Shown here in pieces: positions 45,362 through 46,960 of a DNA stretch of 64,000 nucleotides; the first letter of the stretch is position 1, and each line of letters begins with the position of its first letter. The DNA is from Thermococcus sp. 18S1 (lineage in GTDB: Archaea; Methanobacteriota_B; Thermococci; Thermococcales; Thermococcaceae), in the NCBI RefSeq assembly GCF_012027645.1, contig NZ_SNUU01000001.1, forward strand, positions 806,001 through 870,000. Reading direction: 5' to 3'. The translations under genes were made by a program, and so were the position numbers. The notes beneath the pieces were generated by a model. It saw nothing but the letters and a program-made list of their open reading frames with translations, ran no database searches and had not been told where the DNA came from.

Positions 45362-45386
45362 GATCCTACCCGTTTCGGGTGGGGTC
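45362..45386. repeat. 25-bp palindrome, copy 1, upstream of the ATPase gene
   Basis: GATCCTACCCG-TTT-CGGGTGGGGTC: 11-base arms with two mismatches around a 3-base centre. It starts immediately after the stop of the preceding gene. A closely related copy lies 75 bp further on (centre to centre). Confidence 0.7.
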
Positions 45387-45436
45387 TACTTCTCTGGCCT
45401 TGCAGTGTATCAAATCGCAACCCTTATTAACAGTGG

Positions 45437-45461
45437 GACCCTACCTGAAACAGGTGGGGTC
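45437..45461. promoter_or_regulatory. 25-bp palindrome, copy 2, abutting the ATPase start codon
   Basis: GACCCTACCTG-AAA-CAGGTGGGGTC: 11-base arms with one mismatch. It ends two bases before the ATG at 45464. Both copies end GGTGGGGTCTA on the plus strand. The GGTGGGG arm doubles as the ribosome site, so a bound protein or an RNA hairpin here would block expression. Likely an operator or translational switch for the ATPase gene. Confidence 0.55.
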
Positions 45462-45463
45462 TA

Positions 45464-46555
45464 ATGCTTTTTGACACCCGTCCAAAGGCTTCGATGGATG
45501 AGGTTTTTGGAAGGAAAGCGGAGTACTGGGAACTGGTTGAGAAAATCGAAAACGGAAGGAACTTCTTCGTCATCACCGGTCCAAGGAGGATTGGAAAGAC
45601 CACCTTTCTCACCGCGGCGCTGAACGACCTTCACGAAAAGTACAAAATACCCCACATAATAATCGACGCAAGGACCATATCGACTGCCAATTCAAAGAAC
45701 CCTCAGGGACAGATCGTGAGGGAGATTCTCAGCATTAAAAAGCATTCCAGAAAGGGGAAGCTCTCGAAGATAACAGATTCCATTGAAGGTATCACCATTA
45801 AGGGGGTCAAACTAAAGCTCAGGAAGGACGAGGAGTACACTTTGCCGGATATCCTGAGGGAGCTCAACGACTCCAACGAGCTGCTCATAATAGCGTATGA
45901 TGAGGCGCAGTATTTTAGGTACGCGAACGAGGACTTCACAAAAACCCTCGCCTGGGTTTATGATCGACTGCCCAACATAGTCACGATCGTGACGGGCTCG
46001 CAGGTGGGTGTTCTTGAGAACTTTCTCAGATTCGATGACTACAAGGCACCCCTATATGGCAGGTACCACGTCAAGATACCCCTAGTGAGGTTCACTCCGT
46101 CCCAGAGTTTCGAGTTCCTTGAGAGGGGCTTCAAGGAGTACGGACTGTCCCCTGATCCAAAGGAGATTCTCTCGGCCATCAAAGCCCTCGATGGAGTGCC
46201 CGGCTGGCTGACCCACTACGGTGCGAGCAGGGTCGATGGGAAGACCCACTGGGACGCCGTTCAGGAGGTTCTCATCGAGGCTGAGGGATACATCCGGTCG
46301 GAGTTCGAGGAACTTGACAGGGCTTCCCCGAGGTACAGGGCGATCATGGAAATCGTGGCTGGCATCACTTCCCGGAAGGACTCTGCTTCCTGGACGGAAA
46401 TAAAGAACGCCCTTGAACTCCGGGAGGGCAGGGGGATTGATGACAAGAACCTCAACCTGCTCCTTAAGAAGCTCGTTAACTACGGCTTTCTGGAGCATGC
46501 GGGAAAGGAATACCTCATCCCGGACCCCGTGATCAGAAGGCTCTTCCAGACGTGA
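45464..46555 (+). CDS. Archaeal ATPase of the P-loop STAND-like family
   Basis: 363 residues. It begins LFDTRPKASMDEVFGR, the usual start of the Thermococcales/Methanocaldococcus archaeal-ATPase family. Walker A GPRRIGKTT is at 39-47 and Walker B LLIIAYDEAQYF near 140. A GSQVGVLENF sensor and a C-terminal winged-helix region (residues about 280-363) follow. The family is expanded in archaea and behaves like a mobile or defence-associated gene; its function is unknown. It is flanked upstream by two palindromes that probably control it. Confidence 0.9.
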   Translation: MLFDTRPKASMDEVFGRKAEYWELVEKIENGRNFFVITGPRRIGKTTFLTAALNDLHEKYKIPHIIIDARTISTANSKNPQGQIVREILSIKKHSRKGKLSKITDSIEGITIKGVKLKLRKDEEYTLPDILRELNDSNELLIIAYDEAQYFRYANEDFTKTLAWVYDRLPNIVTIVTGSQVGVLENFLRFDDYKAPLYGRYHVKIPLVRFTPSQSFEFLERGFKEYGLSPDPKEILSAIKALDGVPGWLTHYGASRVDGKTHWDAVQEVLIEAEGYIRSEFEELDRASPRYRAIMEIVAGITSRKDSASWTEIKNALELREGRGIDDKNLNLLLKKLVNYGFLEHAGKEYLIPDPVIRRLFQT

Positions 46556-46666
46556 TGTTTTCAGTAAATTGACTTTTCGGAGGACGTTAGAAGAAGTGAG
46601 GAGTGCCCCGTCGGAAAGGCTGGAGTTCAGTTCCACTCTCTACAGACCTTCGCTATTAAATGCAAT

Positions 46667-46790
46667 CCACGACCCCTCACGAATCATGGACGCGTTATCA
46701 GTTCGGGTCCGCAGCCGGGTGAAGCTTTCGCTTCAGTCTCCCCCGCGAGACACTCCTCAAATACCTATAGGGTCTTTAACTATATAAAGC
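46667..46790 (-). ncRNA. Candidate structured RNA in the ATPase / aglB gap
   Basis: The 405-bp gap after the ATPase gene is not convincingly coding. On the minus strand a TATA-like GCTTTATATAGTT (46778-46790) is followed by GTCTC...GAGAC, then the 6-bp hairpin TGAAGC-GAAA-GCTTCA (46720-46735) closed by a GNRA tetraloop, then GACCC...GGGTC. A GAAA loop on this strand only (TTTC on the other) suggests the minus strand is the RNA. It does not match tRNA, and I cannot assign a family. Confidence 0.35.
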
Positions 46791-46960
46791 TTTGCTTTTA
46801 TTTACAGCAAAATTTTTTTGAAACTGTTCGAAATAATTTTTGCCCGGGGGTTCCCGCACCCCCTCGATGCGGACGTGCGAAACGTGGCGGCTGCGCAACG
46901 CTTTTATTACTCTGCGATGGTAGTGAACTGTGGGATAACCGGGGGTAAGAGGGGACTTTA

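Follow-up and report, generated by a model that had tools for sequence, protein, structure and literature searches.

The window, a 64,000-nucleotide stretch of the genome of Thermococcus sp. 18S1, contains a gene for an ATPase of the ATPase_2 family (PF01637) that is preceded by two related 25-bp palindromes and a predicted promoter. The features of this locus are the following:

45362..45386, plus strand: distal palindrome with a TTT center, starting directly past the stop codon of an upstream nucleotidyltransferase gene
45423..45430, plus strand: TATA-box-like sequence CTTATTAA, the predicted promoter of the ATPase gene, 41 nt upstream of the ATG
45437..45461, plus strand: proximal palindrome with an AAA center, a putative operator over the expected transcription start that contains the likely ribosome site
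45453..45459, plus strand: GGTGGGG, a likely Shine-Dalgarno site within the right arm of the proximal palindrome
45464..46555, plus strand: ATPase_2 (PF01637) gene, 363 amino acids, with an ATPase core and a C-terminal winged helix
46328..46516, plus strand: winged-helix domain, codons 289-351, with helices at 289-304, 310-321 and 327-339 and a wing at 344-351 (AlphaFold2 model)
46442..46480, plus strand: recognition helix, codons 327-339; residues 327-330 rank high among those that vary with the operator half-site, less so in a pair-based test

The preliminary description had reported paired 25-bp palindromes in front of an ATPase gene, and their positions, arms, centers and 75-bp distance were all confirmed. 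The distal copy reads GATCCTACCCG-TTT-CGGGTGGGGTC, with arms differing at two positions, and the proximal copy reads GACCCTACCTG-AAA-CAGGTGGGGTC, with a single arm mismatch; their starts are separated by 75 bp. The ribosome site that had been placed in the second palindrome is there as well, with GGTGGGG in its right arm and the end of the palindrome two bases upstream of the ATG at 45464; a G-run of this kind is common to nearly all operators of the ATPase family. With up to 3 mismatches allowed, the motif is found in the window only in these two palindromes (4 matches over both strands), compared to 0.13 matches on average, and a maximum of 2, in the shuffled window. Pattern searches, again with up to 3 mismatches, identify the two palindromes as the sole sites of the motif in the 1.99-Mb genome. 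A search of Rfam for known RNA families across 40-50 kb returned nothing at gathering scores.

We searched for the motif in 94 genomes of the family, allowing up to 3 mismatches, and detected it in 10, in 8 of which it lies at a single locus adjoining the same nucleotidyltransferase gene; the 3-mismatch matches in the other two (G030 and G036) are not proper palindromes and were rejected as chance. The distal palindrome is conserved in six relatives (G002, G004, G010, G011, G022 and G049). Wherever both copies are found, the distal one has the TTT center and the proximal one the AAA center, and the order and the 74-75 bp spacing of the pair are kept; the difference between the centers, which had been remarked upon at the outset, is thus real and conserved (G000, G002, G004, G022 and G010, the last when read in the direction of the gene). 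The pair recurs at the same position despite decay of the ATPase. The gene is intact at this locus only in G000 and G002; stops interrupt it in G014, G004 and G010 have truncated or decayed versions, and G011, G022 and G049 have lost it through a deletion whose junction appears to be shared. Fusion of the two palindromes into one has removed the intervening promoter in G011 and G049, and in G028 the first palindrome survives as a decayed relic. The expectation that the motif would accompany this ATPase family therefore holds in part: true palindromes occur in 8 of the 94 genomes and always at one locus, though only two of these eight retain an intact ATPase. Nor is the exact motif common to the wider family, in which paralogs use other palindromes in a conserved arrangement.

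The ATPase matches the PF01637 profile with 62.9 bits, compared to the curated cut-off of 33.2, and the residues of the Walker A and B motifs (G39, R41, R42, G44, K45, D146 and E147) are invariant in 51 sequences. The AlphaFold2 model of the protein (mean pLDDT 91.7) includes a winged helix, assigned by fold from the predicted structure; PF21100 matches residues 286-350. The profiles that match the protein are those of the ATPase and the winged helix alone, with no recombinase, transposase or nuclease domain; no Orc1/Cdc6 profile is found among the Pfam matches at E <= 0.001, so that the likeness to these proteins is one of fold only, and the C-terminal sensor repeats of STAND/NLR proteins are absent, the protein stopping at residue 363, just after the winged helix. 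An origin as a virus or plasmid gene was also considered and rejected: there is no PHROGs family and no match in plasmid or phage collections. As for known defense systems, there are only partial PADLOC candidates (PDC-S27, E 3e-16) and an NCBIfam match below the cut-off. Downstream of the ATPase gene lies a non-coding stretch of about 200 nt (46586-46800) that is conserved at 93-98% in close relatives and 73-76% in distant ones, folds stably (z -3.3) and has no Rfam match; its last 84 nt are found alone in several genomes. Possibly, it is a structured RNA or a relic of a mobile element.

Relatives of the ATPase at E < 1e-20 are present in 54 of the 61 Thermococcus genomes, with 1 to 11 per genome. 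We inspected the upstream regions of about 110 Thermococcus paralogs from at least 12 subfamilies (denoted by letters, with the window gene in A). In nearly all of these, a TATA-like box starting 34-48 nt upstream of the start codon is followed by a dyad that reaches the start codon; in all subfamilies examined, the dyad occupies the same slot, and its sequence is uniform within a subfamily and distinct between subfamilies, for example, CCCCCCACCAGTAACTGGTGGGGGG in D, AACTTGCAGGGGTGCAAGTAACTTGTGGGGGTGCAAGTT in E and AACTTACCCCGGGGTAAGTAACTTACGGTGGGGTAAG in F. The palindrome score over 109 upstream regions of the family averages 8.7, with 86% at 7 or more, compared to averages of 5.0 (9% at 7 or more) in shuffled sequences and 4.1 (6%) in a set of 47 other ORFs, although this count overstates independence because many of the family genes are close relatives. 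In two cases (L078 in G005 and L082 in G027), the usual upstream palindrome is missing and one lies directly past the stop codon (e.g., CATCCCAAGTTACTTGGGATG); the start codons of these genes may have been misjudged.

The genome of the window encodes at least five paralogs with five different operators. Among the subfamilies tested, the A, D and F operators are found at their own locus only. Of the 23 genomes that match the F operator, 22 contain it a single time and one has a 3' copy in addition; wherever that ATPase gene was listed, the operator immediately adjoins its start. Subfamily A and its sister B are 59-61% identical, occupy separate loci and have different operator sequences, and both carry a second palindrome copy 74-75 bp upstream; the maintenance of this phasing despite the change of sequence and locus argues for a function, for instance in binding that is cooperative or involves looping. 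Beyond Thermococcus, tandem dyads directly upstream of the start codon were detected in relatives from Sulfolobales, other Thermoproteota, Hadarchaeum, Micrarchaeota, Bathyarchaeia-like archaea and Marsarchaeota. These are mostly centered on, or flanked by, a G-run, and some fall below the palindrome threshold. The shared grammar consists of a variable half-site beside a constant GGGG, and the likely ribosome site is the proximal G-run.

The covariation of the ATPase with its operator was analyzed in 62 non-redundant proteins, using 20-residue stretches and with whole-protein divergence removed. The stretches that best track the operator half-site lie at residues 311-345, and the top three single columns are 327, 329 and 330, with column 328 in the sixth place, that is, at the start of the recognition helix. 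The p-values of this test are not to be taken literally because the control upstream stretch from -50 to -43 also yields a permutation-significant peak in the protein, at residues 181-200. In the test on 30 disjoint nearest pairs, windows of the recognition helix (starts 325-328) rank 29-81 of 348, behind those at 11-16 and 74-87, so that the half-site signal is only suggestive. Covariation of the recognition helix with the operator half-site is thus indicated by one of the two sequence-based tests. Residues 65-100 (about 45656-45763), outside the winged helix, likewise track the operator sequence and may be a further contact with DNA or part of a dimer interface.

We consider it likely that the pair in the window is a paired operator that serves, most probably, for self-repression by the adjoining ATPase. 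The palindromes lie within the gene's own promoter, are helically phased and, across the 94 genomes, are confined to that promoter, the two chance matches aside. The autoregulation that had been proposed when the locus was described is supported by the position of the palindromes, their uniqueness in the genome, the paralog-specific palindromes and the 75-bp spacing in the sister subfamily, and to a lesser extent by the suggestive covariation of the recognition helix. We infer that the ATPase is itself the binder, that binding is repressive and that it is tuned by the nucleotide state; the ATPase is favored as the binder because the private addresses occur only at their own locus (A, D and F) and the ATPase differs in step. 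Under this mechanism, the ATPase would bind the proximal palindrome, which covers the ribosome site and the expected start of transcription, and block its own transcription, and the distal copy, seven helical turns upstream, would let a second dimer bind cooperatively or through a DNA loop. Cross-regulation among paralogs in the same cell would be avoided because each ATPase would have diverged jointly with its own operator. What counts against a role as an operator only is that the palindromes persist where the ATPase has been lost, which an operator alone would not need to do.

The preliminary description had also raised the possibility that the palindromes are terminal repeats of a mobile unit, and this may apply to four other subfamilies but not to the window gene. 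Genes of subfamilies C, D, E and F have another copy of the palindrome beginning no more than about 13 nt from the stop codon, which in E and many F genes is part of the copy itself; within 250 nt past the stop, no such copy was found for the window gene or for subfamilies B, G, H, I, J and K. At the D locus, next to what we take to be an M20-type peptidase gene, the ATPase is present with exactly two copies in 12 of 12 genomes (although the genes of two of these, G041 and G043, appear degraded or frameshifted) and is absent with one copy in 23 genomes or none in 21. The single D copies join the right flank that in relatives follows the ATPase, and the empty E sites with one copy show the same pattern. 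The palindromes at the D locus contain on average 1.74 mismatches where the ATPase is absent and 0.64 where it is present (p 0.008), as expected of relics. These observations are most simply explained by recombination between the two copies, which causes loss of the gene and leaves a one-palindrome scar; in such subfamilies, recombination between the operator copy and the stop-codon copy would delete the gene, with one palindrome staying behind. At four loci (L247-L249 and L257, in G030, G035, G055 and G048), the D gene is missing and there is a J-type ATPase gene in the opposite orientation, with its 3' end no more than about 10-20 nt from the leftover D palindrome. In several genomes (L246, L256, L034, L050 and L051), the D palindrome or scar is directly followed by a second, distantly related ATPase gene, which has about 26% identity to the subfamily representatives and a strongly conserved promoter (TCGAAACGTATTTATATATAATCGTGC).

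The presence of the D gene requires at least 8-11 changes on the tree of the neighbor gene. At fourfold sites, some D genes are much more alike than the neighbor gene (87.8 vs 52.2% for G018/G020 and 94.8 vs 77.8% for G005/G028), and in the exchanged-looking pairs identity falls abruptly at the borders of the D gene, which indicates that exchange between species also occurs. Widespread horizontal transfer was tested by comparing genes with their flanks across subfamilies and was rejected, the divergence of the gene being mostly equal or faster. The palindromes could be att-like ends of a one-gene mobile element, on which the ATPase would act, aided by the host, to insert and excise its own gene, the operator role being secondary. 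The second copy adjoining the stop codon in C, D, E and F, the strict coupling of the D gene to exactly two copies together with the one-copy empty E sites, the 11 changes in D presence, the high fourfold-site identity of several D pairs relative to the neighbor gene and the jumps in identity at the borders of the D gene are all compatible with such an element, but we regard this explanation as unlikely: the window gene has no 3' copy, the profile scan revealed no recombinase or nuclease domain, every subfamily is confined to one or two chromosomal loci rather than varying in position, most of the genes diverge like their flanks or faster, and there is no match in plasmid or phage collections. 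Moreover, plain recombination between direct repeats accounts for the precise losses, and allelic exchange for the similar genes. For the window gene, the terminal-repeat reading fails because of the missing 3' copy, the absence of a detectable recombinase and the restriction to one or two loci. Of the characterization of the ATPase as mobile-type, frequent gain and loss and a few pairs that look horizontally exchanged stand, whereas the lack of plasmid or phage matches and the confinement to one or two loci speak against it. We likewise doubt that the operator doubles as an address for recombination in a minimal selfish element made up of one gene, with an Orc/NLR-like ATPase, a private palindrome and one site; improbable as this appears, such an element would repress itself at its address, and several subfamilies would enter and leave the chromosome without an encoded recombinase.

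Alternatively, the palindromes could act as mRNA hairpins around the ribosome site, through which the ATPase or temperature would control translation. The arms are imperfectly palindromic as DNA, and as RNA both copies form 12-bp stems with G-U pairs (z about -4.5); the dyad mismatches favor G-U pairs on the mRNA strand (20 vs 8, counts that are not independent), and the G-run is also the likely Shine-Dalgarno site. However, the TATA-like boxes that start 34-48 nt upstream of the start codon across family members place the expected transcription start within the proximal palindrome, which would leave no hairpin; furthermore, the distal copy precedes the promoter and could not be part of the ATPase mRNA, and at the 3' copies there is no ribosome site to be controlled, so we find this explanation quite improbable. 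Control by another host transcription factor seems very improbable: Thermococcales do possess palindrome-binding regulators, but the tested motifs are confined to their own locus and, with a private palindrome in every subfamily, each paralog would require a separate regulator.

The autoregulation envisaged here resembles that proposed for Stf76 (ORF80), a winged-helix protein of Sulfolobus plasmid-viruses which, according to the portion of the published account available to us (PMC4027180), binds two palindromic sites in its own promoter, whole helical turns apart (60 bp, compared to 75 bp in the window). In the same portion, Stf76 differs in being a 76-aa protein without an ATPase, encoded by a plasmid-virus gene and with the operator grammar TTAAN7TTAA, and a copy at the gene end is not described. 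By sequence and fold, PAB2304 (2QEN) and SSO1545 (2FNA) are full-length relatives of the window ATPase (VIA-align Z 36.4 and 34.9); unlike it, they are known as solved structures, and no operator or DNA target for either was found in the literature searched, the SSO1545 structure paper aside. Orc1/Cdc6 and STAND/NLR proteins share the same fold over nearly the whole length (Z 23.3 for Aeropyrum ORC2 and about 18-21 for NLR proteins and CED-4), and Orc1/Cdc6 bind DNA through their own winged helix; identity to the window ATPase is about 12-17%, and the latter lacks sensor repeats and ends at residue 363. The bracketed subfamilies also resemble cases of gene loss mediated by direct repeats, in which a gene lies between two direct copies and a single copy is left after its loss, but here the repeat is the putative operator of the bracketed gene and is private to each subfamily. 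We found no account of this arrangement in the literature on ATPase_2 operators, solved structures and single-gene elements of Thermococcales. An ATPase family with private operators, several groups of which are bracketed by them, goes beyond the original observation.

The ATPase_2 proteins are abundant in archaea and their structures have been solved, but a target was not found in the literature searched. A family-wide operator grammar that combines variable half-sites with a constant G-run at a fixed position would give each member of the family a predicted DNA ligand and would supply a natural series of co-diverged protein-operator pairs for an Orc/NLR-type ATPase. Past losses of a gene can be read in a simple way from the one-palindrome scars, which also make the question of mobility testable.
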